Source: an uncultured Saprospiraceae bacterium (GTDB taxonomy: Bacteria > Bacteroidota > Bacteroidia > Chitinophagales > Saprospiraceae). From it: DNA of 64,000 bases. Position numbers and translations under genes: made by a program. A model generated the notes under the pieces. That model was given only the letters and a program-made list of their open reading frames with translations, was not told the origin of the DNA and ran no database searches. This document shows, piece by piece, positions 7,841-58,378 of this stretch (its first letter is position 1; each line of letters begins with the position of its first letter). The stretch lies in assembly GCA_937928045.1 (NCBI GenBank), contig CALFWO010000062.1, forward strand, positions 1-64,000. The letters are read 5' to 3'.

Positions 7841-7966
7841 CGCTGCTAAACTAAGTAAATATTATAGCTGAGTCTTAATTTTTCGATAAACAACCCTTGT
7901 TCGTGGATTGTTCCGCTTACTGTTCGGTCAAACATCCCGACTGTTTCATTTTGTAGTTATTATTAT

Positions 7967-7974
7967 TAATTTTG
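7967..7974 (+). promoter_or_regulatory. Bacteroidota -7 box for queA
   Basis: TAATTTTG matches TAnnTTTG and lies 28 bases before the queA ATG. The four bases 19 bp upstream are TTTC, one change from the TTTG -33 element. Confidence 0.5.
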
Positions 7975-8002
7975 CGGGTCCTTTATAAACGTAAAATACT
8001 GT

Positions 8003-9067
8003 ATGAGAACGAAGTTATCCCAGTTCAAATTTGAGCTTCCTGAAGAATTGATTGCGCAATATCCAACTGATATCAGAGATGAATCCAGATTGATGGTGGT
8101 TCACAAAGATAGTGGTAAAATTGAGCACAAGGTTTTCAAAGATATTTTGGAGTATCTGGTTGAAGATGATACTATGATCTTTAATAATACTAAGGTCTTT
8201 CCTGCTCGTCTTTATGGTAGAAAAGAAAAAACAGGAGCTAGAATCGAAGTTTTCTTGCTTCGGGAGTTGAATCATGAGGCAAGACTTTGGGACGTGCTTG
8301 TTGATCCAGCTAGAAAGATTAGAGTTGGAAATAAGCTTTACTTCAGTGATTCTAACGACGAAGATATTTTGGTTGCCGAGGTTGTTGACAATACAACTTC
8401 AAGGGGCAGAACGATCAGATTCCTATATGACGGCACAGAAGATGAATTCCAAGGTGAATTGAGCAAATTGGGTAATACTCCGTTACCCAAATACATCAAT
8501 AGAGATGCTGAAAAAATCGATAGAGAGCGATATCAGACAGTTTATGCGAAAGAATTAGGAGCAGTTGCCGCTCCGACTGCAGGATTGCACTTTTCTGAAG
8601 AACTAATGAAAAGACTTGAGATCCAAGGTGTTGATTTCGCCGAGCTTACTTTACATGTCGGGCTTGGAACTTTTAGGAATATTGAAGTTGAAGACCTTTC
8701 AAAACATAAAATGGATGCTGAGTACTTTAGAGTACCAGAAAAAGCAGCTCAAGTTGTAAATAAGAGTAAAAAAGCGAATAAACGAATATGCAGCGTTGGG
8801 ACAACTTCAATGCGCGCAATTGAATCTGCTGTTTCAGCGGAGGGTTTATTGAAATCAGCTGAGGGTTGGACTAATAAATTTATTTATCCACCATTTGAAT
8901 TTAATGTGGCCAATTCGATGATAACAAATTTCCATTTACCAAAGTCAAGTTTGGTGATTATGGTAAGTGCGTTCGGAGGACACGAATTAATTATGGATGC
9001 CTACCAAACGGCGATCAAAGAGAAATACCGCTTCTTCTCATACGGAGATGCAATGATGATCATTTAA
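8003..9067 (+). CDS. queA: S-adenosylmethionine:tRNA ribosyltransferase-isomerase QueA
   Basis: QueA transfers the ribosyl part of SAM to 7-aminomethyl-7-deazaguanine at tRNA position 34, making epoxyqueuosine. The 354-residue protein is full length and shows family landmarks: [10 protein letters not shown] at the N-terminus, [16 protein letters not shown], the AAPTAGLHF motif, LHVGLGTFR, and the C-terminal [22 protein letters not shown] 8003 lies just before the conserved N-terminus, and a -7 box lies 28 bp upstream. It is monocistronic, divergent from the ABC permease. Other queuosine genes are not in the window. Assignment is firm. Confidence 0.97.
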
Positions 9068-9889: not shown

Positions 9890-11422
9890 ATGAAAAATTT
9901 GAATGAAATTTCAAAGATCGTAACTAAAAAGAAGGTTCGAAAAATTGAAATCTTTGATGATCATTCACTAAAACACAAGAATAGTAAATTCAACGAATTC
10001 TATGAAGCCATTATGGCCGGGAAATTCAAAAACGATAGAGATGCTGCTAATTTCCTTTATGGCTGTTCTCCTACGGATGACAAATATCGACAGCTAAAAT
10101 CAAGATTTAGAAAGAGATTATTGAATACTCTTTTCTTCTTAGATGTGAATCTACCATCAACTTCAAACTACGATCGTGCCTATTACAGTGTAAATAAGGA
10201 TTGGACTTTAGTCAAAATATTAATTTCCAATGATGCTCAGAATACAGCAGCTTCATTGGCCAGACAAATTTTGACTATTGCCTTAAAATTTAAGTTTGCC
10301 GATGTAATTGTAAACTGTGCCCGAATATTGAGAAGATATGCTGCATCCACAGGAGATGAAAAGAACTATGAAATCTATGATCAACACTCTAAGCAATTTC
10401 AAAATGTTTTGGACGCAGAAATTAGATCAGAAGAATTGTATCAGAGGGTAATCATGAACTATTACAAACCTCTCGCGCAAGAAAATGAATTAAAAGAAAG
10501 AATTGATACTTATTGCGATGCGCTAGTCGGGCTATCTGAAATCTACGACTCCCCTATCGTAGTATATAATATGTATTTGGTTTGGACCTACAGATATGAA
10601 ATGTTGAAGGATTACAATGCAATGCTTGAAGTATGTACCAAAGCAGAAAAATATATTCAAGACAATCCAACCTTTTACCAAGATGACAAATTAGCAACTT
10701 TCCAAATGAAGAAAATGTCCGCATATCTTCACATCAGAGATTGGAAGAATGGTAAGATCAACGCTGAGAAATGTCTTAAATCTTTTCCCGAAGGGTCGGA
10801 TACTTGGTACGTATTTATGGAATACTATTTACTACTAGCGATTCATACTGACAACTATATTAATGCTACTGCCATTCATTCCAAAGCTATTAATCAAAGT
10901 AAATTCAAAAAGCAGCATAATAGAATCCGAGAAAAGTGGAATATTTATGATACCTACTTAAACTATATCATAGAAAGTCAAGGAGCTGAGAATCCGATTT
11001 TAATGACTCAAAAAAAGAAGAATTTCCGGCTTTCTAGATTCCTAAATGATCCAATTCTATATCCTAAAGATCAAAGAATATTTACCGTGCACATGGTAGT
11101 TGCTCAAATATTATTCTTTATTGAAAAGAAGAGTTACAATGCTGTCAGTGAAAGAATTGATCGATTAAAGAGTTATGCCAATCGCCAGTTGAAAAAAGAT
11201 GAATATCATCGTTTAATTCAGTTTATCCGTTTATTACAACAATTGGCAAAAGCGGAATATAAAGTTAGTAACCTAAGTAATGTCGAAAAATATTACAATC
11301 GTTTGATAGAAACTCGCTTCTCGTACCGTGGAATAATTTCAGAATTAGAAGTAATTCCCTACGAAAAACTGTGGAATAATATTCTTGAGCGACTAAAGCC
11401 TTCGACAGTATCGGCGAGATAA
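9890..11422 (+). CDS. Helical-repeat (TPR-like) protein of unknown function
   Basis: The 510-residue protein is predicted soluble: no signal peptide and no membrane segment. A basic N-terminus (KKKVRKIEIFDDH) is followed by a segment of the type 'YGCSPTDDKYRQLKSRFRKRLLNTLFF', split here only to describe it, and then by long amphipathic helices resembling tetratricopeptide repeats. I do not recognise a named family. A second protein of similar size and N-terminal logic lies at 41410-42843, where 'PYNELRINNLLSNLQEVV' takes the corresponding place, so they may be distant paralogues. It precedes cmk by 114 bp on the same strand. Function is unknown. Confidence 0.8.
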   Translation: MKNLNEISKIVTKKKVRKIEIFDDHSLKHKNSKFNEFYEAIMAGKFKNDRDAANFLYGCSPTDDKYRQLKSRFRKRLLNTLFFLDVNLPSTSNYDRAYYSVNKDWTLVKILISNDAQNTAASLARQILTIALKFKFADVIVNCARILRRYAASTGDEKNYEIYDQHSKQFQNVLDAEIRSEELYQRVIMNYYKPLAQENELKERIDTYCDALVGLSEIYDSPIVVYNMYLVWTYRYEMLKDYNAMLEVCTKAEKYIQDNPTFYQDDKLATFQMKKMSAYLHIRDWKNGKINAEKCLKSFPEGSDTWYVFMEYYLLLAIHTDNYINATAIHSKAINQSKFKKQHNRIREKWNIYDTYLNYIIESQGAENPILMTQKKKNFRLSRFLNDPILYPKDQRIFTVHMVVAQILFFIEKKSYNAVSERIDRLKSYANRQLKKDEYHRLIQFIRLLQQLAKAEYKVSNLSNVEKYYNRLIETRFSYRGIISELEVIPYEKLWNNILERLKPSTVSAR

Positions 11423-11462
11423 AGTGCCAAAAATTCAATATTAGATGTTCGCAAATTTAGTA

Positions 11463-11480
11463 TTGTCCTATTTTGGGACA
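11463..11480. promoter_or_regulatory. Dyad TTGTCC-N7-GGACA (copy 1), possible operator
   Basis: TTGTCC TATTTTG GGACA lies upstream of cmk. The same arms and spacer length, with a similar A/T spacer ending in TTG, recur at 12390-12407. TGTCC and GGACA are perfect inverted arms, which would suit a dimeric regulator. Confidence 0.35.
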
Positions 11481-11536
11481 AACTAAAACTTTTAATTTCC
11501 TCTTGATCATTCGTATCTTGAGGTAAAAAATTAGCT

Positions 11537-12208
11537 TTGATAATAGCAATAGATGGATACTCCTCTTGTGGAAAATCAACCTTAGCGAAGGATTTGGCCC
11601 ATACCTTACAGTATACCTATTTGGATAGCGGTGCGATGTATCGCGCAGTCACCCTTTACTTTTTAGACAACAATATTTCATTTAATGATTCAGAAGCTAT
11701 TAATAAAGCATTGAATCTGATTGAAATACGTTTTGAAGAACACTCGAATAGAACACTATTGAATGATATTGACGTAGAAAGTGAGATTAGATCACCTCGG
11801 GTTTCGGACCAGGTAAGTCCAGTATCTACCATATCTGCGGTCAGAAAAAAAATGGTAGAGCAACAAAGGGCGATGGCAATACAGGGATCAATTGTTATGG
11901 ATGGAAGAGACATTGGAACTGTTGTATTTCCAAACGCAGAATTGAAAATTTTCTTAACCGCCAACATAAACATTCGCACAAATCGTCGCTTAGATGAAAT
12001 GCAACGCAAAGGATACGAAATCTCCAAAACAGAAATTATGAAGAATTTGGAGACTCGGGATAGAATAGACTCCTCCAGAGCCGATAGTCCTTTAAGTCAG
12101 GCAGAAGACGCCGTACTGTTAGACAATTCAAACTTGACTCGTAAAGAACAGATAACCATGGTATTAGCCTTGGCAAAATACCGTCAATCAAATTTAGAAA
12201 AGGCCTAA
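11537..12208 (+). CDS. cmk: Cytidylate kinase
   Basis: Cmk phosphorylates CMP and dCMP with ATP in pyrimidine nucleotide salvage and synthesis. The 223-residue protein has the P-loop GYSSCGKST (7-15), the YLDSGAMYRA nucleotide-binding phrase and a VMDGRDIGTVVFP motif, and is full length. An in-frame stop lies at 11519-11521 and the only start before the P-loop is TTG 11537, so a TTG start is required. It stands 114 bp after a helical-repeat gene and is followed by a strong terminator at 12217-12248. Confidence 0.95.
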   Translation: MIIAIDGYSSCGKSTLAKDLAHTLQYTYLDSGAMYRAVTLYFLDNNISFNDSEAINKALNLIEIRFEEHSNRTLLNDIDVESEIRSPRVSDQVSPVSTISAVRKKMVEQQRAMAIQGSIVMDGRDIGTVVFPNAELKIFLTANINIRTNRRLDEMQRKGYEISKTEIMKNLETRDRIDSSRADSPLSQAEDAVLLDNSNLTRKEQITMVLALAKYRQSNLEKA

Positions 12209-12216
12209 AATCATGA

Positions 12217-12256
12217 AAAGCCACCCTTCACATGGAAGGAGTGGCTTTCATTTCCC
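12217..12256 (+). terminator. Rho-independent terminator after cmk
   Basis: AAAGCCAC (12217-12224) pairs with GTGGCTTT (12241-12248). Inside, CCTTC pairs with GAAGG around a small loop, with one or two unpaired bases. CATTTCCCC follows. Confidence 0.75.
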
Positions 12257-12389
12257 CAAAGCTATTCTTAATCTAAATTGATTTAATTTTAAGTAGAACA
12301 ATTACTTGTCCACTTATTTAGCTTTCAATTTTGTGCCAAAATTTCAACAACCTATAATTCAAGGGCTTACGAAATTATCATTATAAAAT

Positions 12390-12407
12390 TTGTCCAATAT
12401 TGGGACA
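12390..12407. promoter_or_regulatory. Dyad TTGTCC-N7-GGACA (copy 2)
   Basis: TTGTCC AATATTG GGACA matches copy 1 at 11463-11480 in both arms and in spacer length. It lies in the noncoding interval upstream of the putative small RNA at about 12519. Confidence 0.35.
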
Positions 12408-12518
12408 CAATTTCTCATTTATAGACAAATTTGTTTGATTATCGCTTGAAATTTTCTTCATTTTAAATATTTTATTTAGCTGTCAATGCCGTTTGGCACG
12501 ATTTTCTGAAACTTAGAC

Positions 12519-12660
12519 CTTTACTCTTTTATGGAGTAAAGACCTTGCCCCAAAACCAAGTCACAGTCTTTTTAGCTGTGATACACAACTGCGGGGTCTT
12601 GAAACCTTTCAGATGAACACTAACTACTAAAATCAGATCCAAGTGATCTGATTTTTTTTT
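12519..12660 (+). ncRNA. Putative free-standing small RNA with strong intrinsic terminator
   Basis: No ORF covers this stretch. It contains a hairpin CTTTACTC/GAGTAAAG (12519-12526 with 12534-12541) and a hairpin TCACAG/CTGTGA (12561-12566 with 12576-12581). The second is enclosed by CCCC (12548-12551) pairing with GGGG (12593-12596). It ends in a perfect 11-bp stem AAAATCAGATC/GATCTGATTTT (12629-12639 with 12645-12655) running into a T tract. The upstream gene already has its own terminator and the next gene starts 237 bp later, so the transcript appears independent. I cannot match it to 6S, 4.5S, tmRNA, RNase P or a known riboswitch. The 5' end is a guess. Confidence 0.6.
12629..12660 (+). 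terminator. Strong rho-independent terminator of the putative small RNA
   Basis: An 11-bp perfect stem (12629-12639 and 12645-12655) with loop CAAGT is followed directly by an unbroken T run to 12660. Confidence 0.88.
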
Positions 12661-12764
12661 GCCATATGAAGAACTTTCAAGTGTCACGCCATTTACCCTG
12701 ACTCATAGAATTTAGTAGAAACAAGACAATATATTTAGTTTTAAATCGAAGAATAATCTACATC

Positions 12765-12896: not shown

Positions 12897-14009
12897 ATGA
12901 ATTGTAGATTTACATTATTACTCAGCCTGCTAACTTTTTCATTTTTTCTTTCCGCCCAAGATCCTTCATTCTCTCAATTCTATGCCAATAGAATATATTT
13001 GAATCCCGCTTTTGCAGGCATTGAACAAGGACTCACCTTCGCAGGTGTCTCTCGAATTCAATGGACCAATGCTGACACAGGTTTCAAAACCTATGGCGTA
13101 AGTCTTGAACTTCAAGAACCTGGTATCAATAGCGGAATTGGTCTTAATATTTTCCAAGACCGCCAAGGATTAGCACAGCTCAATACCACCTCTATTGGAT
13201 TGACCTATGCTTATACTATTAAAATGGTCAACCATAATATTCATTTTGGCTTGCAAGCTAGATGGATTGAGAAAAAAGTAGATTGGTCTAAAATTACTTT
13301 CTCTGATCAACTTGATCCTGTTTACGGAGCAATCTACCCTACTACCGCTATTCCCATTTTAGATAGAATAACTTATTCCGATTTCGATGCAGGAGTAGTC
13401 TGGAGATTCAAATCCGATATTCGATTAGGTAAAAAAAGATTTAGAGATACCCGTCACGCACTAGGAATTGCAATTCATCATTTACCAAATTTAATCAGCG
13501 ATAATGCCGGGAACGAAAGTTTCCAACAATTGGACACCCGAGTCAACCCACGAATTACAATTCATGCAGGTTCCGTAATTCCTTTTGTTTGGTTTGCTGA
13601 TGGATCTAAAACCATTGCAGTTTCTCCTACAATCAAAGTTGATATTCAAGGTGAAAAAATAACCGAGTTCAGTAGCAATTTACAAGTAATTACTATGGGA
13701 GGATATTTGGTTTACGATGGAGTCTACATTGGAGCATTATACCAGAATAAAAAGATAATAACAGATTCCAGAAATACGAATGCATTTATACTTGCATTTG
13801 GAGCATACTTGAAACGTCCGGGGTCAAAGACTAAGAACACCTTCGTAGGTTTCAGCTACGATGCGAATACAACCGGAGTTGGTACTCAAGCTGGCGGAGT
13901 ATATGAACTAGCAGTCAGATGGAACTTCATAGATATCCCGGGAATTTTTGGAGACCGCAGCAACAAACGCAAATCAAACAAATCGCTAGACTGTTTCAAG
14001 TTCTTTTAA
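12897..14009 (+). CDS. PorP/SprF family type IX secretion outer-membrane protein
   Basis: The 370-residue protein has a signal peptide ending ..FFLSAQD and the PorP/SprF opening DPSFSQFYANRIYLNPAFAG. It continues with alternating beta strands expected of a 14-strand outer-membrane barrel. In gliding Bacteroidota, SprF-type proteins pair with a specific giant adhesin carrying a type B sorting domain (SprB is the model). The very next gene, 57 bp downstream, encodes exactly such a protein, so this is probably its dedicated partner. It is not the core PorP of the whole machine by any evidence here. The leader upstream is rich in hairpins. Confidence 0.93.
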   Translation: MNCRFTLLLSLLTFSFFLSAQDPSFSQFYANRIYLNPAFAGIEQGLTFAGVSRIQWTNADTGFKTYGVSLELQEPGINSGIGLNIFQDRQGLAQLNTTSIGLTYAYTIKMVNHNIHFGLQARWIEKKVDWSKITFSDQLDPVYGAIYPTTAIPILDRITYSDFDAGVVWRFKSDIRLGKKRFRDTRHALGIAIHHLPNLISDNAGNESFQQLDTRVNPRITIHAGSVIPFVWFADGSKTIAVSPTIKVDIQGEKITEFSSNLQVITMGGYLVYDGVYIGALYQNKKIITDSRNTNAFILAFGAYLKRPGSKTKNTFVGFSYDANTTGVGTQAGGVYELAVRWNFIDIPGIFGDRSNKRKSNKSLDCFKFF

Positions 14010-48948: not shown

Positions 48949-49980
48949 ATGTTAGATCTTAATGGCCAGTCCATTTTAATCACAGGAGGAACAGGCTCAT
49001 TCGGGAAAAAATTCGTCGAAACTATATTCTCAAGGTATCCTAAGGTCAAAAGACTAGTTATTTACAGTCGAGATGAATTGAAGCAATTTGAAATGTCTCA
49101 GACCTTTTCAAATAGCAAATATCCAGCAATTAGATATTTTATCGGAGATGTAAGAGATGGTGCTCGATTCAAACGTGCTTGCGAAGGAATTGATGTGATC
49201 ATTCATGCTGCAGCATTGAAACAAGTACCGGCAGCAGAATACAATCCAATGGAGTGTATCAAAACAAATGTACTGGGCGCTCAGAATATTATCGAAGCGG
49301 CCATGGATACTAACGTCAAAAAAATAGTAGCGCTTTCCACCGATAAGGCCGCCGCACCAATTAACCTTTATGGAGCGACAAAACTTTGTTCTGATAAACT
49401 TTTCGTAGCAGCCAATCGAGTTGTGGGATCAAGAGATTTAACCCTTTCTGTAGTTCGCTATGGAAACGTCATTGGCTCTCGAGGATCTGTAATACCATTT
49501 TTTCTGAAGAAAAGGACTGAAGGATTTCTCCCAATAACTCATGCAGACATGACTAGATTTAATATTTCTTTGGCGGATGGTGTAGAAATGGTGATGTATG
49601 CATTAGAACATGCTATCGGTGGTGAAATTTTCGTCCCAAAGATTCCATCCTATAGAATTACGGATGTAGCCACTGCAGTAGCGCCTGACTGTGAGCAAAA
49701 AATTGTCGGCATACGGCCAGGTGAAAAATTACACGAAGAAATGATCACAACCTCGGATTCAATGAACACTGTTGAGCTCGATAATTACTACGTTATATGC
49801 CCAGGAAGTTTTAAATATTCTCCAGAGGATTTAGCGAAAAAATTTAATGGCAAATTAGTGCCGCAAGGTTTCAGCTACAATAGTGGAGAAAACAAGGAAT
49901 GGCTGACCGTAGAGCAACTTCGAGATCAAATTGTTGAACATGTAGATCCTAATTTTTCAATAAATCCAACGCATGCGTAA
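48949..49980 (+). CDS. pseB: UDP-N-acetylglucosamine 4,6-dehydratase (inverting), PseB
   Basis: PseB performs the first step of pseudaminic acid synthesis: UDP-GlcNAc to UDP-2-acetamido-2,6-dideoxy-beta-L-arabino-hex-4-ulose. The 343-residue SDR protein has the NAD motif TGGTGSFG (12-19), HAAALKQVPAAEYNP, the active-site region LSTDKAAAPINLYGATK, and VRYGNVIGSRGSVIP. These phrases are diagnostic for the inverting dehydratase family (PseB/FlaA1), not for retaining dehydratases. The coding end overlaps pseC by 8 bases. It opens the rightward cluster. Confidence 0.95.
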   Translation: MLDLNGQSILITGGTGSFGKKFVETIFSRYPKVKRLVIYSRDELKQFEMSQTFSNSKYPAIRYFIGDVRDGARFKRACEGIDVIIHAAALKQVPAAEYNPMECIKTNVLGAQNIIEAAMDTNVKKIVALSTDKAAAPINLYGATKLCSDKLFVAANRVVGSRDLTLSVVRYGNVIGSRGSVIPFFLKKRTEGFLPITHADMTRFNISLADGVEMVMYALEHAIGGEIFVPKIPSYRITDVATAVAPDCEQKIVGIRPGEKLHEEMITTSDSMNTVELDNYYVICPGSFKYSPEDLAKKFNGKLVPQGFSYNSGENKEWLTVEQLRDQIVEHVDPNFSINPTHA

Positions 49981-51127
49981 GATCCCTTATGGTCGTCAAG
50001 ATATAAATGAGGAAGATATAAATGCGGTAATCACAGCACTCAAGGACGAGTTGATTACTCAAGGACCTCAAATCGAAATATTCGAAAATAAGTTTGCAGA
50101 ATATATTGGATGCAAATATGCAGTTGCTGTGGCCAATGGGACAGCCGCTCTGCATCTATGTGCAATGGCCTTAGATGTCAACGAAGATTCTCGAGTCATC
50201 ACAGCCCCGATAACTTTTACTGCATCAGCAAATTGTATTAGATATTGTGGCGGATCAGTGGACTTTGTTGATATAGATGAAGACAAAGTGGTCCTGGATG
50301 TCGAAGCAGTTAGAAAAAAAATTGAAAGCCATCCACCTGGAACTTTTCAAGGTATCGTTCCAATAGACTTCGCTGGTTATCCAGTGGACTTGGAAGCCTT
50401 TAGAAAGTTAGCCGATGAACACGGCCTTTGGCTGTTAGAGGATGCCTGTCACGCCCCTGGAGGATTTTTTATCGACAGTAAAGGAGTTCAACAGAATTGT
50501 GGGAATGGCAACTATGCAGATTTAGCTATTTTTTCATTTCATCCAGTAAAACACATAGCTTGCGGAGAAGGAGGAATGATCACAACCAACAGCAAAGAAC
50601 TTTACGATAAATTGTTAATATTAAGAACTCATGGTATTACTCGTCGTCCAGATCTTTTAGAAAAGAATGACGGTGGTTGGTATTATGAAATGCATTCATT
50701 GGGATATAATTACCGATTGACTGATTTTCAAGCAGCCCTTGGGGTGAGTCAATTGAAAAGGGCAACTAAGAATATTGAAATTAGAAGGGCAATTGCAAAA
50801 CGGTATGACATTGCTTTCAAAGATTTCGCTCCGGTTGAAACAATTACTCCCCCTGCAGACAATGGGCATGCCTATCATTTATATGTTATAAAAACCGAAA
50901 GAAGGAAAGAGCTATACGATCATTTAAGAGCAAATGGCATCTATGCTCAGATTCATTACATCCCTGTACACACTCAACCCTACTACCGAAACTTATCTAC
51001 AGAAAAAGTAAACTGTCCAAAGGCAGAATCATATTACGATCAATGCCTTAGTTTACCGATGTTTCCAACTTTAACTTTGGAGGAACAGGAATTTGTAATA
51101 GTCATCGTAAAAAAATTCTTTGAATGA
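49973..51127 (+). CDS. pseC: UDP-4-amino-4,6-dideoxy-N-acetyl-beta-L-altrosamine transaminase, PseC
   Basis: PseC is the PLP-dependent sugar aminotransferase that adds the C-4 amino group from glutamate to the PseB product. The 384-residue DegT/DnrJ/EryC1 protein has AVANGTAALHL and the LEDACHAPGG motif. The PLP lysine is Lys193 in FHPVKHIACGEGG, and NYRLTDFQAALG follows near the C-terminus. The amino group it creates is the one normally acetylated by PseH, which is missing in this cluster. The start overlaps pseB by 8 bases and the stop overlaps pseF by 4 (ATGA). Confidence 0.95.
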   Translation: MRKIPYGRQDINEEDINAVITALKDELITQGPQIEIFENKFAEYIGCKYAVAVANGTAALHLCAMALDVNEDSRVITAPITFTASANCIRYCGGSVDFVDIDEDKVVLDVEAVRKKIESHPPGTFQGIVPIDFAGYPVDLEAFRKLADEHGLWLLEDACHAPGGFFIDSKGVQQNCGNGNYADLAIFSFHPVKHIACGEGGMITTNSKELYDKLLILRTHGITRRPDLLEKNDGGWYYEMHSLGYNYRLTDFQAALGVSQLKRATKNIEIRRAIAKRYDIAFKDFAPVETITPPADNGHAYHLYVIKTERRKELYDHLRANGIYAQIHYIPVHTQPYYRNLSTEKVNCPKAESYYDQCLSLPMFPTLTLEEQEFVIVIVKKFFE

Positions 51128-51828
51128 AAAATCTCGCAGTCATACCTGCCAGAGGTGGCTCAAAGAGAATTCCTAAAAAAAATATAAAAGACTTTTTAGG
51201 CAAACCGATAATTGCTTACTCCATTCAAGCTGCTTTGGATTCCGGACTTTTTGAAGAAATCATGGTATCCACTGATTCAGAAGAGATTAAAGTCGTGGCG
51301 GAAAAGTATGGGGCCAAGGTTCCTTTTTTGAGATCCGCAAAGAATGCCGATGATCATGCGACTATTTCAGATGTGATGAGCGAGGTTCTGGATTATTATG
51401 ATGATAAAAACTTGACTTTTGACAACATTTGTTGTATACTCTCAACAGCTCCTTTCACCACTTGTGAAAAAATTAAAGAAGCTTACAATAAATTATATTC
51501 TGGAGATTTTATTTCTATCGTTCCCATTCAAAAATTTAGCTTTCCCATATTGAGAAGTTTGCGGATCAATTCCAATGATCAGTTGGAAATGAATTGGCCT
51601 GAGTACTCGAAAACAAGATCACAAGATTTAGAAGAGGCTTTCCATGATGCAGGTCAGTTTTACTGGGCAAAACTTGAAGCCTATCGAACAGAGATGAAGT
51701 TTAATTCTTCTAAAACAGGATATATAGAATTCAAAGCAAATGAATCTCAAGATATAGACACAGAAGAAGACTGGAAAATCGCAGAATTAAAATTCAAAAT
51801 TTTGAAAGAGCCGAAGCCTATTCTATAG
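51124..51828 (+). CDS. pseF: Pseudaminic acid cytidylyltransferase, PseF
   Basis: PseF activates pseudaminic acid with CTP to give CMP-pseudaminic acid, the donor for glycosyltransferases. The 234-residue protein starts MKNLAVIPARGGSKRIPKKN, the CMP-sugar synthetase signature. It continues with MVSTDSEEIKVVAEKYGA and CCILSTAPFTTCE. Family members for legionaminic or sialic acid look alike, but the adjacent pseB, pseC, pseG and pseI set the assignment. The gene order, activation enzyme third in the cluster, puts it before the acylation module. Confidence 0.93.
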   Translation: MKNLAVIPARGGSKRIPKKNIKDFLGKPIIAYSIQAALDSGLFEEIMVSTDSEEIKVVAEKYGAKVPFLRSAKNADDHATISDVMSEVLDYYDDKNLTFDNICCILSTAPFTTCEKIKEAYNKLYSGDFISIVPIQKFSFPILRSLRINSNDQLEMNWPEYSKTRSQDLEEAFHDAGQFYWAKLEAYRTEMKFNSSKTGYIEFKANESQDIDTEEDWKIAELKFKILKEPKPIL

Positions 51829-51914
51829 ATGTTGCTTTTAGGGCTATTCTACGTCATAACTAGACCAAGTATAAAATGAATTTTAAAAAATTAAATTATA
51901 CTCCAATTTAAAAA

Positions 51915-52550
51915 ATGAAAAAAGACAATTCTATCTTATTAAAACAAGAGTTGCCTATTGCATTCAAGGGTTCTAGAGACTACATCTATGCTTCAGATGT
52001 GTTTTCTGGTTTAATAGATGTTTTGAAAAATCATGGCTTTAATGAAATAATTAATATTGACTTTTCTGTACATAATCTATCAAACGTCGGAATTGAGTTA
52101 ATCATTTATAAAAATCAACTTCCAAGTTCTATTCAAGATTACTTTGCGCAATTAAGATTTGAATCAAACGGCAAAACATATTTTGGAATAGTTAAATCAA
52201 TTGACAAGAAAATAACGGATCGAACGAATTATGATGAACAAGATATTTTTGAAAATACGGAAATAAATAAAAATGACAATTCTATAACCTTGAGCAATAA
52301 ATATACAAGTTATTCGAATCTAGAGGCTTTTACGGCTATGAATAAAATTTTGCTTTATTCGGTTAGACCGGATATCAAAGGACAATGGCTATCCGTAAGA
52401 TTGCAATTAGAAAATTATAAAGATCTTTATTCCAAAAGGGAAAATTACAAAGTAGTTCTTAAGAAGATATTTTCTAACAAATATGCCAAAAGTTCGTTAT
52501 TTAATAATGATCAAAAAATAGGAAATTTATTTTTCTCTTTAAGAAAGTGA
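51915..52550 (+). CDS. Unknown 211-residue protein of the ACP/KAS III acylation module
   Basis: The 211-residue, lysine-rich soluble protein has no signal or membrane segment. It begins with QELPIAFKGSRDYIYASDVFSGLIDVL and has a mixed strand/helix pattern with a middle segment SYSNLEAFTAMNKILLYSV. I do not recognise the family. It is not an SDR ketoreductase (no GxxxGxG) and not an obvious FabZ/FabA dehydratase. It ends inside the start of the KAS III gene (4-bp overlap), so it is translationally coupled to it and probably works on the ACP-bound intermediate or scaffolds the complex. It is more A/T-rich than pseB/pseC. Confidence 0.8.
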   Translation: MKKDNSILLKQELPIAFKGSRDYIYASDVFSGLIDVLKNHGFNEIINIDFSVHNLSNVGIELIIYKNQLPSSIQDYFAQLRFESNGKTYFGIVKSIDKKITDRTNYDEQDIFENTEINKNDNSITLSNKYTSYSNLEAFTAMNKILLYSVRPDIKGQWLSVRLQLENYKDLYSKRENYKVVLKKIFSNKYAKSSLFNNDQKIGNLFFSLRK

Positions 52551-53482
52551 CCACAATGGTAGGAATAAAAAATATTGGAGTTTATATACCTGAAGAAAGA
52601 ATTTCTAATCTAGAGAAGTTAGAAAAATTCGACACAACAGAAGACTTCATTAGCAACAAGATTGGAATTGAAAAGGTTTCATTAAAATTGCCTGATGAAG
52701 ATGTTTCTGAAATGTGTGTAAAAGCTTTTGAACATCTTAATTCAAAGCAAACTATTGAAAAACAGAATATTAAGGCGTGTATTTTAATTACACAAAACCC
52801 AGAGAGTAACATTCCCCACTCTTCTGCTTTACTGCATGATAAATTAGACTTACCGCAAGATTGTGCTTGTTTCGATATTTCACTTGGCTGTTCAGGATAT
52901 GTTTATGGTTTGTCAGTATTAAAGTCATTCATGCAATCAAATGATATTTCTGAAGCATTGCTTTTCACTTGTGATCCATATTCTAAAATTATGGATTACG
53001 AAGATAAAAACACCTCTTTGCTTTTTGGAGATGCAGCAACTGCCACCCATCTCGTAACAGAAAACCCAAACTTTGATATTGAGAAATTTACATTTGGAAC
53101 ATTTGGCAAGGAGAGTCACAACCTAACTGCTGGGATCAATGGAAGTAAACTGGCCATGAATGGCCGAGGAATTTTCAATTTCGTTATTAGAAATATACCC
53201 AAAAATATTAAAAAACTTTGCGAGTTAAATGGAATTAACGAAAATGATATAGACGCTTTCGTTTTTCATCAAGGCAGTAAATTTTTAATAGACACCTTGG
53301 TTAAAAGAATGAAGGTTGATCCTAATAAAATGAAATTTTCAGCCAAAGACTATGGCAATACAGTTTCAAGTTCAATTCCAATACTTTTGGAGGAACTAGA
53401 AATTGAAAAACACAAGACTATCGCAATCAGTGGATTTGGTGTTGGACTTTCTTGGTCTAGCACAATATTAAAAGTAAATTAA
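52547..53482 (+). CDS. KAS III-like (FabH family) enzyme with intact Cys-His-Asn triad
   Basis: The 311-residue thiolase-fold protein has active-site Cys115 in DISLGCSGYVYGL, His241 in FVFHQGSKF and Asn271 in YGNTVSSSIP. This is the complete KAS III set, so it can form an acyl-enzyme and either condense with malonyl-ACP or move an acyl group. The C-terminal GFGVGLSWSSTIL is typical of FabH. It is followed 4 bp later by an ACP gene and is coupled to the unknown 211-residue gene. Fatty-acid FabH is normally in a phosphate acyltransferase/fabH operon, so this copy is specialised. Confidence 0.9.
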   Translation: MTTMVGIKNIGVYIPEERISNLEKLEKFDTTEDFISNKIGIEKVSLKLPDEDVSEMCVKAFEHLNSKQTIEKQNIKACILITQNPESNIPHSSALLHDKLDLPQDCACFDISLGCSGYVYGLSVLKSFMQSNDISEALLFTCDPYSKIMDYEDKNTSLLFGDAATATHLVTENPNFDIEKFTFGTFGKESHNLTAGINGSKLAMNGRGIFNFVIRNIPKNIKKLCELNGINENDIDAFVFHQGSKFLIDTLVKRMKVDPNKMKFSAKDYGNTVSSSIPILLEELEIEKHKTIAISGFGVGLSWSSTILKVN

Positions 53483-53486
53483 TAAA

Positions 53487-53717
53487 ATGGAATTAACAGA
53501 AAAAAGCTTAAAGGATGTTCTTAAGCAATCCTACAATGGAGATCTAGATGAAATCAAAATGGATAGCGTTTTAAATCAAATTGTAGATTCTCTCGACATG
53601 TTGGACTTTTACCTTAACCTAGAGGAAACTTATGAGATCCAAGTACCGGATGAAGATATTGAAAGACTCAAAACTTTCAATGAAATCAAAGCTTATGTCG
53701 AGGAAAAGTTGAACTAG
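53487..53717 (+). CDS. Acyl carrier protein dedicated to the pse cluster
   Basis: The 76-residue acidic protein has the four-helix ACP pattern and the phosphopantetheine site Ser35 in VDSLDMLDF. Housekeeping ACPs read (G/A)DSLD(S/T)VE, so DSLDML indicates a specialised carrier. It lies 4 bp after the KAS III gene, and its stop codon is immediately followed by the ATG of the LpxD-like acyltransferase. The three products are therefore made together. An acyl-ACP is the usual donor for LpxD-type enzymes. Confidence 0.92.
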   Translation: MELTEKSLKDVLKQSYNGDLDEIKMDSVLNQIVDSLDMLDFYLNLEETYEIQVPDEDIERLKTFNEIKAYVEEKLN

Positions 53718-54584
53718 ATGAAACATCGCATTAAACCTATTTCCGCAAAGACTTTAAATAAAAAAAGTATTGGTAACGCAGAATTTACTGTTGAGTATAT
53801 TACTTCGTTAGGGTATAGTGATGAATCTACAATTACATTTTATAAGGGCGAAGACTTAGAGGTCATCTCAGGAATTTCAGCAGGAATATTAATTGTAAAA
53901 GAGAGTCTACAGGAAAAGATTGTAAACTTTATGGCCACCACTATATTGTTCACAGTTGACCCAATGCTGTTTTTTGCAGAATTGTTAACCGACAATTTCG
54001 AAAACTCTTTTACAGACAAAAATACATCGTCATTTGACAATTGTTATATTTCTGAAAACGCTTATATCGAAGATCAAGTTCGTATTGACGCAGGAAGTAA
54101 AGTTTATCCAAATGCTACTATTTTAAATTCTACTTCTATCGGAAAGAATTGCGTAATCCAATCCGGAGCAGTTCTAGGTGGAATTGGAATGTCCTATGTG
54201 AAAGATGAATTTGAAATATTCCAAAAAATAATTCAATTGGGATTACTAGAAATAGCTAACAATGTCGACATCGGTTGTAACACAACTTTACTAAGAGGTA
54301 TTTTCGAAAAAACATCAATTGGAGAGGGAACCAAAATTGGTAACAATGTGAATATTGGTCACAATGTTATTGTGGGTAAAAATTGCTACATCTCTTCCGG
54401 TGTTGTTATTGGAGGAGCATGTATAATTGGAGATAATTGTTGGATTTCTCCTGGAGTTTCTATTGTCGACCATATCAATATTGGATCAAACTCAAAGATT
54501 GGTACCGGAGCCGTTGTATTAAAAGATGTTCTTAGCAACAGTTTTTATCTAGGTAATCCTGCAAGAAAAATCAAAGATATTTAG
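53718..54584 (+). CDS. LpxD-like left-handed beta-helix N-acyltransferase (putative PseH replacement)
   Basis: The 288-residue protein has a divergent N-domain (about 1-100) and a hexapeptide left-handed beta-helix (about 105-280). The helix core carries LEIANNVDIGCNTTLLRGIFEKTSIGEGTKIGNNVNIGHNVIVGKN, split here by its function: His215 in NIGHNVIVG aligns with the catalytic His of LpxD (QIAHNVVIG in Escherichia coli). LpxD moves acyl from ACP to a sugar amino group. In this cluster the acceptor is likely the 4-amino sugar made by PseC. Lipid A assembly is unlikely, since the gene abuts a dedicated ACP and lies between pseF and pseG. Confidence 0.88.
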   Translation: MKHRIKPISAKTLNKKSIGNAEFTVEYITSLGYSDESTITFYKGEDLEVISGISAGILIVKESLQEKIVNFMATTILFTVDPMLFFAELLTDNFENSFTDKNTSSFDNCYISENAYIEDQVRIDAGSKVYPNATILNSTSIGKNCVIQSGAVLGGIGMSYVKDEFEIFQKIIQLGLLEIANNVDIGCNTTLLRGIFEKTSIGEGTKIGNNVNIGHNVIVGKNCYISSGVVIGGACIIGDNCWISPGVSIVDHINIGSNSKIGTGAVVLKDVLSNSFYLGNPARKIKDI

Positions 54585-54695
54585 TTTTGAATCTTGCCTT
54601 CATTCAATTTGAAAAATGAAAATAATAGTAGTACAATTTTATTATTCTCCTTTCCTAATTTTCTAACATCATCATTTATGTATAGAACGTAATTA

Positions 54696-55766
54696 ATGAC
54701 CAGTAAAAAAAAACATGTTCATCAATGCTTTATTCTTGCTGATGCCAATTCTAGGATTGGTACAGGTCATATTATGCGCACATTTATACTTGCCAAAAAA
54801 CTTGTCAAACTTAATTTTGACGTTGTATATCTTCTTAGTGAAACTTCCGACACAATAAAAGACTGGATTCAAGAAAGAGGCATTAAACATTTTACACTTT
54901 CTCCAAATGTGAGGAATAGCGCTGTTGATTTGATTGATTTTCTAACTCCTCTAAAAATAGGAAGGCAACTTCTTCTTTTTGATTCTGACGAACCTGCATT
55001 TTACAAAATCGATTACCAGAAAAAATTACGCGAAAATGGAATAGGTCTTACCATGATTACTTTGAGAAATCACTTATTTGATTTAGACATTTTGCACAAT
55101 CAAAATCCACTAGCATTTGAAAACAATTATAAGATAAATGGTGATGCAAAACAATTGCTAGGATTAAAGTACTTGATAGTTAAAAATCAGTATCAAGAAT
55201 TATATGAGGCAAGCAAAACTAAAAAAATCAAATCAATAAAAACATTGTTATTGACCTTTGGAGGAGCGGATAGCAAAAGATTGACAACTAGGGTAATTGA
55301 AGTTCTGAATCAGCTTCCGGATTCATACTGTTTTAATGTCAACGTGATTGTTGGAGCGCTAAATAAAGACTTAGAACAAATAAAGCAAATAACAAAAGTA
55401 ACCCAGCATAGCTATACAATCTATCATAATACTCCTGAAATGCCTCGGCTAATGTTTGAATCTGACTTAAGTATAAGCTCAGGAGGATTGACAGTTTGGG
55501 AATTAGCAATTTGCAAAACAATTAACTTTTTAATTCCAACTTCTGATCGGGAAATAATGAGTTCTGAATACCTAAAGAAAGAAGAGCTTATTTATCAAAA
55601 AGGAAACTGTGAAGAAATCAGAGATCGGGAAATCGCCGAAACGCTTATAAAAATTGTTGATAATCCTAAAGTTGCAGCTGAAATGTGTGAAAGATTTCAT
55701 CATTTGGTAAATCCGTTTGGTGCCGATTTGTTGGTTAAGGAGATTTCTGATTGGTTTAAAAAATAG
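54696..55766 (+). CDS. pseG: UDP-sugar hydrolase PseG
   Basis: PseG removes UDP from the diamino-dideoxy sugar nucleotide, giving the free hexose used by PseI. The 356-residue GT-B-like protein has the N-terminal PseG signature ADANSRIGTGHIMRTFILAKKL with catalytic His25, plus LLLTFGGADSKRLT and SISSGGLTVWELA in the second Rossmann half. No PseH (GNAT) domain is fused at either end, unlike some PseG-PseH fusions, so the acetylation step is not hidden here. It is 111 bp after the LpxD-like gene and 59 bp before the chosen start of pseI. Confidence 0.9.
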   Translation: MTSKKKHVHQCFILADANSRIGTGHIMRTFILAKKLVKLNFDVVYLLSETSDTIKDWIQERGIKHFTLSPNVRNSAVDLIDFLTPLKIGRQLLLFDSDEPAFYKIDYQKKLRENGIGLTMITLRNHLFDLDILHNQNPLAFENNYKINGDAKQLLGLKYLIVKNQYQELYEASKTKKIKSIKTLLLTFGGADSKRLTTRVIEVLNQLPDSYCFNVNVIVGALNKDLEQIKQITKVTQHSYTIYHNTPEMPRLMFESDLSISSGGLTVWELAICKTINFLIPTSDREIMSSEYLKKEELIYQKGNCEEIRDREIAETLIKIVDNPKVAAEMCERFHHLVNPFGADLLVKEISDWFKK

Positions 55767-55825
55767 GCGTAAGAATTATCATTTTGATACATTCAAATAT
55801 TATAACTTTGAGCAACAGTATAAAT

Positions 55826-56884
55826 ATGAATAGTAAAAAGGAGATAGAAATAGGACCTAGAAAAATTGGTGAAGGGCACCCCTGCTATATAATAGCAGAA
55901 CTATCTGCTAATCATAATCAGGACTTTGACTTAGCAGTCAAAACAGTAGAAGCCGCAGCAGCTGCAAATGTTGATGCTTTAAAATTACAAACCTACCGCG
56001 CAGATACCATTACATTAGACTCTGATCTTCCTCATTTTAAAACAAGAGCAGATAGCAATTGGGCAGGTCAGAAATTCTTTGATCTTTACAAAAAAGCGTA
56101 TACTCCTTGGGAATGGCAACCTAAGTTGAAAAAAATAGCTGAAGACTTGGGGCTGCAATGTTTCTCTTCTCCTTTCGATGCGACATCAGTTGATTTCCTG
56201 GAAGCCATGGATGTTGAAGCTTACAAAATCGCCTCATTCGAAATTACTGACATTCCTTTGATTGAACTCGTAGCCTCAAAAGGAAAACCGGTAATAATTT
56301 CTACAGGAATCGCTGCTGAGGCCGATATTGAATTGGCTTTAGCTGCCTGCAAAAAAATGGGAAATGATCAAATTGCATTGCTGAAATGTACTTCGGCTTA
56401 CCCCACTCCATTAGAAGACGTTAATCTTCGAGCAATTCCACTTCTTGCTGAAAAATACAATACTGTTGTTGGACTATCGGATCATACCTTAGGATTAACT
56501 GTTCCGACAGCATCGGTCGTTTTAGGAGCATCTATCATCGAAAAACATATTATCCTTGACAAAAAACTTGGTGGAGTCGACAGCTCTTTTTCTTTAGACG
56601 CACAAGAATTCAAAGAACTGGTTGAGGGTGTCAGAAATACAGAAAAAGCGTTAGGGATTGCAACATTGGAACCAAATGCCAAAATGATTTCCGCGCGTAG
56701 ATCAACTCGGTCTTTATTTGCGATTACTGAGATAAAAGCTGGAGACACCATTACATCTGAAAACGTAAAATCACTCAGGCCAGGTGTTGGGTTAGCTCCA
56801 AAATATTACGAAGAATTGTTGGGTAAAAAAGCCAAAGTAAATATTGCTAAAGGAACTCCAATGGATTGGGAGCTAATCGCCTAA
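55826..56884 (+). CDS. pseI: Pseudaminic acid synthase PseI
   Basis: PseI condenses the free diamino sugar with phosphoenolpyruvate to make pseudaminic acid. The 352-residue protein (from MNSKKEIEIGPRKI) has the NeuB-type TIM barrel with ELSANHNQDFDLAVKTVEAAAAANVDALKLQTY. It also has SSPFDATSVDFLEAM, CTSAYPTPLEDVNLRAI, GLSDHTLGLTVP and the IIEKHI motif. A C-terminal SAF/antifreeze-like domain follows (about 295-352). ATG 55826 is favoured over 55784, because the family motif begins soon after and the longer N-terminus is unlike the family. Confidence 0.94.
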   Translation: MNSKKEIEIGPRKIGEGHPCYIIAELSANHNQDFDLAVKTVEAAAAANVDALKLQTYRADTITLDSDLPHFKTRADSNWAGQKFFDLYKKAYTPWEWQPKLKKIAEDLGLQCFSSPFDATSVDFLEAMDVEAYKIASFEITDIPLIELVASKGKPVIISTGIAAEADIELALAACKKMGNDQIALLKCTSAYPTPLEDVNLRAIPLLAEKYNTVVGLSDHTLGLTVPTASVVLGASIIEKHIILDKKLGGVDSSFSLDAQEFKELVEGVRNTEKALGIATLEPNAKMISARRSTRSLFAITEIKAGDTITSENVKSLRPGVGLAPKYYEELLGKKAKVNIAKGTPMDWELIA

Positions 56885-56896
56885 TATAATATCTGA

Positions 56897-58378
56897 ATGA
56901 AAATACTGCTTTATTCCAATCAAGGTCTAGCCCCTAGACATTTAGGAATCGAATTGGAGACAATTGAAAACCTAAAAGCAGATGGTCATGAACTACATAT
57001 CCTGAAATGCGATAATCAACTTGAAGGTTGCTTTTTCAATCCTTGTCATAATTTATTAGGTTGTGCAATTTGTGAAACAAGAACACATCGTTTTCATCAA
57101 AAAATAGGAGTTGATCAATCTAGGGTTTATAAACTTGAAAAAATAAGTGAAGCCCAGAAATTCGACATTCCTTTTTTCGAGAATATTGACGAACTAATGA
57201 ACTTCGAATTTGACGGTGTGAATATTGGTCGCGGTGTGGCTTCATCCATAATTTCTTTACGTAGAAATTTTGAAATTTCAAGTCACACGGAAAAAGACTT
57301 CATTGCTTTTCAAACGAGAATGGCAATCAATGTTTACTTAAATTTTAAGAAGTATGTGGAATTATTAAATCCAGAAGAAATATATCTATTCAACGGGCGA
57401 TTTGCTGAATGTCATCCGATTCTTGGATTGGCAAAAAAATATAATCTTAGATTTAAGTCTATGGAAGTTTCTAGTTCCAAAAAAAGATATGAAATCTACG
57501 ACAATCATTTACCTCACAGCATTGAAAAACGAATCGGCAGATTAGAAAAAATTTGGAATTCAGCAGTGGCAGAAGAACGTATAAAAGTAGCTAAATCATG
57601 GTTTGAAAAAAGAAGAGCTGGAACCAATAAAATAGGAATAGTATTTACTGGAGATCAAAACGAAAATGAATTACCAAAAGGGTTCGATAGCAATTTAATG
57701 AACATAGCTATTTTTAATTCTTCAGAAGATGAAATGAAGGTAATTGAAGAGTGGCAACATGATATTTTTGAAAACCAAAATCAGGTAATTGAAGAGTTAG
57801 TCAAACATTTTGCCAACCATCCCAAAATTCATTTTTATTTGCGTGTCCATCCTAACCTTGGCAAAGTGGACAACGCCCAAAGTAGAGGAATAAAAGTGAT
57901 GAATTATCCAAATCTCACTATTATTCCTTCTTCGGACTCAGTCGATACTTACGCGCTTATGCAAGCTTGTGATAAAACTATTTCCTTTGGTTCTACAACA
58001 GGAATAGAGGCTACTTATTGGGGAAAACCCTCCATCCTATTTGGCAAAAGTTTTTATCAAACCTTAGATTGTGTTTACCATCCAGCGAACTTCCCAGAAC
58101 TTTTTGAGATTACAGCTAAGCAAAATTTAAAAGCCAAACCTAAAGCCAACACCTACAAACACGCCTTTTATGTTCAAAACTATGGAATACCGTTTAAGCA
58201 ATTCGAGTATGAGGATAAAAACAATAGCTACTTTCAAGGCGAACACATAAAACGGACTTACCCTAAAACTATATTTACATTTTTTAGATATCTAATAAAC
58301 TTTAAAAAATGGTTCCGATATACTAAGATTGTAAAAAAGAAAAATCTTTGGAATTCAGATATTCGAAAACTTCGTTAA
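56897..58378 (+). CDS. Putative GT-B glycosyltransferase (KpsS/capsule-synthesis type), candidate Pse transferase
   Basis: The 493-residue protein has a GT-B-like N-half (MKILLYSNQGLAPRHLGIELE) and a Cys cluster FFNPCHNLLGCAICETRTH near residues 45-65. The C-half has phrases of capsule-synthesis/Kdo-transferase proteins: FYLRVHPNLG, a DSVDTYALMQACDKTISFGSTTGIEA stretch, and GKPSILFG. That region would bind a CMP-sugar or related donor. It is 12 bp after pseI, the last rightward gene, so it may transfer CMP-Pse. This is inference; the family is only recognised at the level of the C-terminal motif. Confidence 0.75.
   Translation: MKILLYSNQGLAPRHLGIELETIENLKADGHELHILKCDNQLEGCFFNPCHNLLGCAICETRTHRFHQKIGVDQSRVYKLEKISEAQKFDIPFFENIDELMNFEFDGVNIGRGVASSIISLRRNFEISSHTEKDFIAFQTRMAINVYLNFKKYVELLNPEEIYLFNGRFAECHPILGLAKKYNLRFKSMEVSSSKKRYEIYDNHLPHSIEKRIGRLEKIWNSAVAEERIKVAKSWFEKRRAGTNKIGIVFTGDQNENELPKGFDSNLMNIAIFNSSEDEMKVIEEWQHDIFENQNQVIEELVKHFANHPKIHFYLRVHPNLGKVDNAQSRGIKVMNYPNLTIIPSSDSVDTYALMQACDKTISFGSTTGIEATYWGKPSILFGKSFYQTLDCVYHPANFPELFEITAKQNLKAKPKANTYKHAFYVQNYGIPFKQFEYEDKNNSYFQGEHIKRTYPKTIFTFFRYLINFKKWFRYTKIVKKKNLWNSDIRKLR

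Follow-up and report, generated by a model that had tools for sequence, protein, structure and literature searches.

How is the 4-amino group of a pseudaminic acid (Pse) precursor acylated in an operon that encodes no PseH, the acetyl-CoA-dependent GNAT of this step? The question is posed by a stretch of 64,000 nucleotides (the window) from an uncultured Saprospiraceae bacterium (assembly GCA_937928045.1, contig CALFWO010000062.1), in which positions 48949–56884 hold a complete pse operon with a module of four genes lodged between PseF and PseG. The module encodes a 211-residue protein, a KAS III-like ketosynthase, an acyl carrier protein (ACP) and an LpxD-like N-acyltransferase, and it is probable that these proteins N-acylate the 4-amino group made by PseC. 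This reading is based on the gene content of the operon, the conservation of the four-gene block, its re-use beside sugar aminotransferases, the co-inheritance of a particular PseG and changes in the active site of that PseG.

The pse operon and its four-gene module

The genes of the operon, with the evidence for each assignment, are as follows.

48949..49980, plus strand: PseB, inverting UDP-GlcNAc 4,6-dehydratase (TIGR03589, 515 bits; cut-off 408)
49973..51127, plus strand: PseC, 4-aminotransferase yielding the free 4-amino group (TIGR03588, 462 bits; cut-off 423.5)
51124..51828, plus strand: PseF, pseudaminic acid cytidylyltransferase (TIGR03584, 286 bits; cut-off 206)
51915..52550, plus strand: module gene 1, 211-residue predicted double-hotdog protein, putatively catalytic (AlphaFold2 model, structure matches)
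52547..53482, plus strand: module gene 2, KAS III-like ketosynthase with the triad C115/H241/N271 (PF08545 and PF08541, above gathering scores)
53487..53717, plus strand: module gene 3, acyl carrier protein with Ser35 (PF00550, 24.5 bits; cut-off 20.8)
53718..54584, plus strand: module gene 4, LpxD-like hexapeptide N-acyltransferase with His215 (TIGR01853, 185.3 bits; cut-off 242.5)
54696..55766, plus strand: PseG of the module type (TIGR03590, 151.6 bits; cut-off 153.55; tree, signature and alignment to 3hbm)
55784..56884, plus strand: PseI, pseudaminic acid synthase (TIGR03586, 460 bits from residue 34; cut-off 340)

PseB, PseC, PseF and PseI thus all score above their curated NCBIfam equivalog cut-offs (four of four), and the true start of PseI is probably downstream of the annotated TTG. 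PseG falls marginally below a cut-off that is often missed, as 20 of the 58 genomes with a PseG match have none above it (38 of 395 genomes do). The module genes are spaced by −4, +4 and 0 bp, with gaps of 86 bp after PseF and 111 bp before PseG. When ten window proteins were scanned, neither Pfam nor NCBIfam matched a GNAT family, and a profile built from pse-linked GNATs detected none in the 79 open frames of the window (best 4.1 bits). A first-pass annotation, made by a model from the letters alone, had listed PseB, PseC, PseF, PseG and PseI, the lack of a GNAT-type PseH, the gene coordinates and the overlaps or gaps of 0–4 bp among the four module genes, all of which were borne out, with PseG the marginal case.

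The residues that it had singled out also hold in alignments. The triad of the ketosynthase, numbered from its GTG start (relatives begin at residue 4), aligns with that of solved FabH-type enzymes and is invariant across the KAS III alignment; both KAS III Pfam domains are present, and the protein scores below the cut-offs for FabH proper (TIGR00747, 198 vs 292.1 bits; PRK09352, 224.5 vs 249). Ser35 of the ACP lies within VDSLD, of which DSLD is invariant in the three aligned ACP rows, and the protein scores below the NCBIfam ACP cut-offs (best-scoring model, 42.9 vs 66 bits). LpxD proteins, which N-acylate a UDP-sugar from an (R)-3-hydroxyacyl-ACP donor, are the best solved relatives of the fourth module protein. 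Hexapeptide repeats are common to both, as is the position of His215, which aligns with position 239 of the LpxD chain 3eh0, its catalytic histidine, and is invariant in eight of eight aligned rows, two of them LpxD-like proteins outside modules. The window protein differs from LpxD in being shorter, in scoring below the equivalog cut-off, in its pse operon setting and in that Pfam gives no match to the N-terminal uridine-binding domain. Its AlphaFold2 model is too poor to use (mean pLDDT 57.6); it has no structure match at E 0.001, and LpxD chains top the weak ones.

The first module protein had been called unknown. It does match no Pfam or NCBIfam family at 1e-3, and sequence searches gave weak matches only (best E 0.13 in PDB and 0.0065 in PHROGs), but its fold, missed in the earlier reading, is predictable. 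An AlphaFold2 model computed from three sequences (mean pLDDT 73.5) matches, along the entire length of the model, double-hotdog enzymes, namely dehydratase domains of polyketide synthases and acyl-ACP or acyl-CoA thioesterases, with identities of about 3–14% (Foldseek best E 7e-6, probability 1.00, 57 matches at 0.001, TM-scores by query length of 0.34–0.51). A VIA comparison with the MlnB dehydratase gave Z 9.7 and a root-mean-square deviation of 5.7 over 187 residues, only somewhat above the Z of 7–8 that is usual for models without a clear match; a Z of about 9 would be good but not overwhelming support for the predicted fold, which resembles those of dehydratases and acyl-ACP thioesterases. 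F17, G19, R21, Y23, D28, F30, I124, K144, D153, W158, G203, F207 and S208 are invariant in the five loci described below, and with them the motifs F-x-G-x-R-x-Y and D-x-F. Hotdog dehydratases use a catalytic His in HxxxGxxxxP and an Asp as a dyad. By eye, no such His motif is recognisable before the first helix in the five-locus alignment, and the protein may dehydrate, guard or simply bind acyl-ACP.

The module and its PseG in other genomes

To find relatives, contigs of 84,980 species were scanned for short peptide patterns taken from the LpxD-like protein; such a scan misses distant relatives, and it returned seven loci. The first (L018), in Aquimarina sp. MMG016, encodes PseB, PseC, PseF, PseG, the double-hotdog protein, KAS III, ACP, the LpxD-like protein and PseI; its module proteins are 53, 72, 72 and 71% identical to those of the window, its PseG 31%, and none of its 35 open frames matches the profile of pse-linked GNATs. 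In a Bacteroidales metagenome-assembled genome (MAG; locus L019) the four module genes are followed by a GNAT, PseG, an ATP-grasp protein and a truncated PseI. A Chlorobiota MAG contig (L020) begins inside the LpxD-like gene, with PseI next. The LpxD-like proteins of the other four loci are distant (26–33% identity), and no KAS III, ACP or double-hotdog matches to the reference set accompany them. On a Candidatus Odyssella MAG contig (L021:1-8679), which has no KAS III, ACP or double-hotdog matches, a distant LpxD-like gene (28%) lies near a PseC-like aminotransferase and a NeuB-family-like protein, both recognised by matches to window proteins.

Two further loci were found by way of the double-hotdog profile (L059, in genome G243) and of KAS III (L083). 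On the minus strand of L059, LpxD-like, double-hotdog, KAS III and ACP genes stand in a row; next come a gene assigned by eye as PAPS-reductase-like, one resembling sugar epimerases and one for a sugar aminotransferase, while RmlA lies on the other flank (TIGR01207, above cut-off). The 19.5-kb stretch has no PseF, PseG or PseI match. The genes for a sulfotransferase-like protein (L059:2316-3236), likewise assigned by eye, and the PAPS-reductase-like protein (7418-8122) lie near this module. L083, on a conjugative plasmid of the alphaproteobacterium Pontibrevibacter nitratireducens, has ACP, LpxD-like, double-hotdog and KAS III genes, a cupin annotated as FdtA/QdtA (no NCBIfam match at 1e-10) and an aminotransferase. 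For the aminotransferases of both loci PseC is the best NCBIfam model, at 203 and 198 bits (cut-off 423.5), and RmlA and the annotated cupin suggest that these may be dTDP-3-amino sugar loci. The whole four-gene block is therefore present in five loci (the window, L018, L019, L059 and L083), L020 contributing the LpxD-like end only; its recurrence in four loci besides the window argues against a chance assembly, and since it also adjoins sugar aminotransferases away from pse genes, amino-sugar synthesis appears to be the common context.

The module is rare. The double-hotdog profile matched two of 395 genomes of the phylum (the window's own and G243) and one of 395 of the class (its own), and a single-sequence search matched two of 199 of the family (its own and a fragment in G021), these genome sets being overlapping; the weak G021 fragment, which contains three stops, was left out of the module count. 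In 72,556 plasmid records the Pontibrevibacter double-hotdog protein matches only itself and that of the window nothing. KAS III matched 333 plasmid records, and three of the 20 listed were examined. The Pontibrevibacter record has the module, the match in P. veronii lies beside annotated polyhydroxybutyrate genes, and an Azospirillum record without annotation has KAS III and ACP matches to the reference set only.

We compared 43 PseG rows from 41 loci: 37 fetched stretches (two of them with two rows each), the two clusters of the window's own genome, L018 and L019. The 37 stretches are all 32 PseG matches from other genomes with an open frame below 450 residues plus five chosen fused ones, other fused matches being left out. 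Matches below 150 bits for PseG, 480 for PseC, 470 for PseB, 250 for PseF and 340 for PseI were dropped from the respective trees, and lengths were limited to 250–500 residues for PseI and PseC and 180–420 for PseB and PseF; L019 appears in the PseG tree only, because the end of its contig truncates PseI and no match to PseB, PseC or PseF lies on that contig. The three module-linked PseGs form one clade (support 100/99; 100% of 200 bootstrap trees). In the trees of PseB (29 rows) and PseC (34 rows), supported branches separate the window from Aquimarina, the Aquimarina PseC pairing (99/93) with that of genome G299, whose cluster has a PseG–GNAT fusion; the PseF tree (18 rows), which is poorly resolved, does not group the window with L018.

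The active site points the same way. His17, Tyr78 and Asn255 are the tested active-site residues of Campylobacter jejuni PseG. In the alignment to this protein (3hbm), the ordinary PseG–GNAT fusion of the second pse cluster of the window's genome, on contig C15, keeps Tyr at Tyr78 and Asn-Gln at Asn255-Gln256. In the window PseG the equivalent of His17 is kept (H25), Tyr78 is replaced by Asp98 and, in the 43-row alignment, Asn255 by Arg285 and Gln256 by Glu286. All three module PseGs read D-S/T-D for D-x-Y and R-E for N-Q. Asp at the Tyr78 position occurs in three of three module PseGs and in none of the 40 others (36 have Tyr), and Arg at the Asn255 position in three of three and one of 40 (34 have Asn); at Gln256 the 40 have 37 Gln and three Glu. 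Departures among these 40 concern the Asn position only in L125 and L144 and several positions in L142, L145, L146_8655 and L147. The canonical residues are found in four of four PseGs linked to a formyltransferase, eight of eight fused to a GNAT and 11 of 12 with a GNAT in the same stretch, and the catalytic His in 43 of 43. Because the module PseGs form one clade and share active-site changes, and because PseB and PseC do not group, PseG seems to belong to the cassette and to have been re-tuned for a different N4-acyl group.

A candidate acyl group and its alternatives

A pathway can be proposed in which the cassette at 51915-55766 comprises the double-hotdog protein, KAS III, ACP, the LpxD-like protein and the module-type PseG within the pse operon. 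KAS III would start a short chain on the dedicated ACP, a housekeeping FabG would reduce it, and the double-hotdog protein would process or guard the acyl-ACP. Family chemistry and operon logic suggest that the LpxD-like enzyme would then acylate UDP-4-amino-4,6-dideoxy-L-AltNAc at its 4-amino group, with (R)-3-hydroxybutyryl as the likeliest group transferred. The altered PseG, to judge from its active site, would hydrolyse the bulkier UDP-sugar, and PseI and PseF would convert the product to CMP-Pse with a non-acetyl N7 group. The choice of 3-hydroxybutyryl is a tentative best guess.

It is equally conceivable, and may quite possibly be the case, that the module acts on N4 with some other acyl group (crotonyl, butyryl, or a longer or branched one), the double-hotdog protein deciding which. 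The predicted fold, common to dehydratases and thioesterases, and a block that includes no ketoreductase would both suit such an outcome, while the donor used by LpxD enzymes speaks for a 3-hydroxyacyl group. The KAS III-like protein ChlB3 can be an acyltransferase, according to an excerpt of PMC9573744, and this too would allow other groups. On the opposite side, other bacteria are known to have 7-N-(R)-3-hydroxybutanoyl Pse: excerpts of PMC9676051 and PMC3628348 indicate that Acinetobacter baumannii clusters with psaGH instead of psaDE are linked to Pse5Ac7(R-3-hydroxybutanoyl), and that acylation of the same intermediate is the predicted role of Psb5 in Shigella boydii type 7. In Psb5/Psb4 and PsaGH, as in the window, a non-acetyl N7 group on Pse would go with a joint change of the acyltransferase and the next-step hydrolase; there two genes are exchanged, and the excerpts of the two papers name no dedicated KAS III or ACP, unlike the window (PMC3628348, PMC9676051).

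Several observations weigh against N4 acylation by the module. No ketoreductase was found in the ten window proteins scanned, the scan of the other loci covering part of their neighbours. The known module PseGs number only three and sit on long branches (1.1–1.3 changes per column), for which reason the motif evidence outweighs the tree. The PseI tree (37 rows, including the window, L018 and L020) is unresolved, these being one group in 26% of bootstrap trees. The genome encodes a second complete pse cluster on the minus strand of contig C15 (L008:10152-15587), with PseI (10152-11195), the PseG–GNAT fusion (11201-12667), PseF, PseC and PseB (to 15587; 73% identical to the window PseB in an own-genome search), and the fusion could acetylate in trans; for its C-terminal GNAT part PseH is the best NCBIfam model (24.9 bits; cut-off 93.1). 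The PseH model TIGR03585 has 13 matches in the window's genome, none above 93.1 bits (best 54.9, contig C5), and 13 in Aquimarina (best 56.1). In L019 the module occurs together with a GNAT that adjoins PseG. Finally, the 43 PseG rows divide into eight with a fused GNAT, 12 with a GNAT in the stretch (above 75 bits anywhere in it, by a profile iterated on the same loci), four with a formyltransferase, three with the module and 16 in whose fetched stretch no acyl enzyme of the kinds looked for was found, some of the 16 lying on short contigs; with so many rows likewise showing none, a missing GNAT is weak evidence.

These points bear on a reading in which the C15 fusion or another GNAT acetylates N4 in trans (or in cis, perhaps in L019), leaving the module to modify a different position or a different sugar of the same glycan. 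The PseH-model scores neither show nor exclude a lone PseH, because pse-linked GNATs themselves reach only 24–38 bits and all 14 control genomes match the model too. The L019 GNAT scores 67 bits with a held-out profile of 14 pse-linked GNATs, at the top of the held-out rows, and has no NCBIfam PseH match at 1e-3; generic GNATs of the window and Aquimarina genomes reach at most 51 bits and other held-out pse GNATs 9–39, so that this profile, which ranks the other pse-locus GNATs no higher than generic GNATs, does not decide the matter in either direction. L019 may hold both acylation activities, and the C15 cluster would give rise to the ordinary 7-N-acetyl form, perhaps with two nonulosonic acids in one cell. 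Against trans acetylation, both gene neighbourhood and the shared clade link the module to PseG, the active site of that PseG is changed, and no GNAT is present at the Aquimarina locus. A second target amine is not expected either, as we know of no free amine other than N4 in the Pse pathway. On balance we regard this reading as unlikely. The claim of the first-pass annotation that PseH is replaced fits the window and Aquimarina loci but not L019, and the window's genome also encodes the C15 fusion; a PseH homologue elsewhere in the genome is thus partly real, its one clear instance being that fusion in a pse operon of its own, and a strict anticorrelation of module and PseH fails at L019. N4 acylation by the acyl-ACP module is supported in part, in that the module takes the place of PseH in the operon, adjoins sugar aminotransferases elsewhere and is accompanied by a diverged PseG, though not as a general rule.

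That the four genes are a stray lipid A or fatty acid block unrelated to Pse, as the fatty-acid or lipid A relatives of KAS III, ACP and the LpxD-like protein might suggest, is very improbable, because the block is conserved (it lies in two other pse loci and beside sugar aminotransferases), because its genes are tightly coupled in the pse operon and because the genome has other LpxD-like genes, two of them of LpxD length (365 and 381 residues).

Among the known systems closest to this one, PseH (TIGR03585) serves the step from PseC to PseG in ordinary pse clusters, whether as a separate protein or as a fusion with PseG like that of the C15 cluster; the window has instead a hexapeptide enzyme of LpxD type together with a dedicated ACP and KAS III. 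Another such system is in the O-antigen genes of Flavobacterium psychrophilum, where, in the excerpt of PMC6519341, an ACP, two ketosynthases, a ketoreductase and a PglD-like acyltransferase (wfpC–wfpG) are proposed to place 3,5-dihydroxyhexanoyl on UDP-Qui2NAc4N, giving Qui2NAc4NR. That system too has its own ACP, ketosynthases and N-acyltransferase for a UDP-4-amino sugar; it differs in its bacillosamine precursor, PglD-like acyltransferase and ketoreductase, and no double-hotdog protein is described in the excerpt. Enterobacterial flagellin islands with ACP, FabG and LuxE are mentioned in part of another paper (PMC4875605). Among the open-access papers searched, none mentions pseudaminic acid, FabH and acyl carrier protein together; one joining pseudaminic acid, ACP and 3-hydroxybutyr concerns alpha/beta hydrolases, and the block is not described in titles or abstract beginnings among the matches listed. 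The cassette is real and, by analogy with the ACP- and KAS-dependent amino-sugar N-acylation already proposed in F. psychrophilum, its pathway is of a known kind. A wider conjecture, which we hold to be less likely than not, is that a transferable cassette of these four genes puts ACP-derived acyl groups on nucleotide-activated amino sugars of several pathways, bringing its own re-tuned PseG into pse clusters; the double-hotdog protein would then be a new acyl-ACP-shaping enzyme, and the Pse would carry an unseen N7 group.

N-acyl groups on nonulosonic acids help to decide recognition by antibodies, phages and lectins. On sequence evidence only, the cluster is predicted to yield a non-acetyl Pse whose acyl group comes from a dedicated acyl-ACP. 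D-S/T-D and R-E in PseG mark such clusters so far, and this offers a rule, open to testing, by which the N7 group might be read from genomes. An internal control in the same genome is provided by the second pse cluster with its ordinary fusion.

Other acyl enzymes at PseG loci

At the PseH step, a varied acyl enzyme or no recognisable acetyltransferase is common. The KAS III/ACP/LpxD solution is rare, and it is the one accompanied by a changed PseG. Formyltransferase-family genes stand in the place of PseH at L129:7403-8278, L134:9223-10098, L133:7020-7907 and L121:7637-8290 (L134 and L121 assigned by scanning, L129 and L133 by eye) and predict 7-N-formyl Pse; here, too, another acyl type is found beside PseG, but the PseG residues are canonical. 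Carbamoyltransferase-like genes lie between PseG and PseI at L132:6246-7928, L135:1692-3371 and L136:8987-10666 (L132 by the NodU model, 111 bits against a cut-off of 1000; L135 and L136 by eye), with no GNAT match in the fetched stretches, that of L135 being a 4.1-kb contig. In genome G554 (L140:10896-14269) an ACP-like frame (12982-13215) directly precedes PseI, with FkbH-like HAD and glyoxalase-like genes upstream (by eye) and a GNAT present, perhaps for modifying Pse from a glyceryl-ACP type donor.

The module and its PseG have a G+C content of 27–33%, against 39–40% for PseB, PseC and PseI. Transfer of the cassette had been considered on this ground and was dropped, as ordinary AT-rich clusters dip likewise at PseG (L008 by −6.8 and L132 by −6.5 points; 21 others by a mean of −1.6, standard deviation 2.9). 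Directly 3' of PseI, both the window (56897-58378) and Aquimarina (L018:11889-13214) encode a PF05159 (Capsule_synth) protein; the two are mutually dissimilar at 1e-4 and are perhaps transferases using the CMP-sugar.

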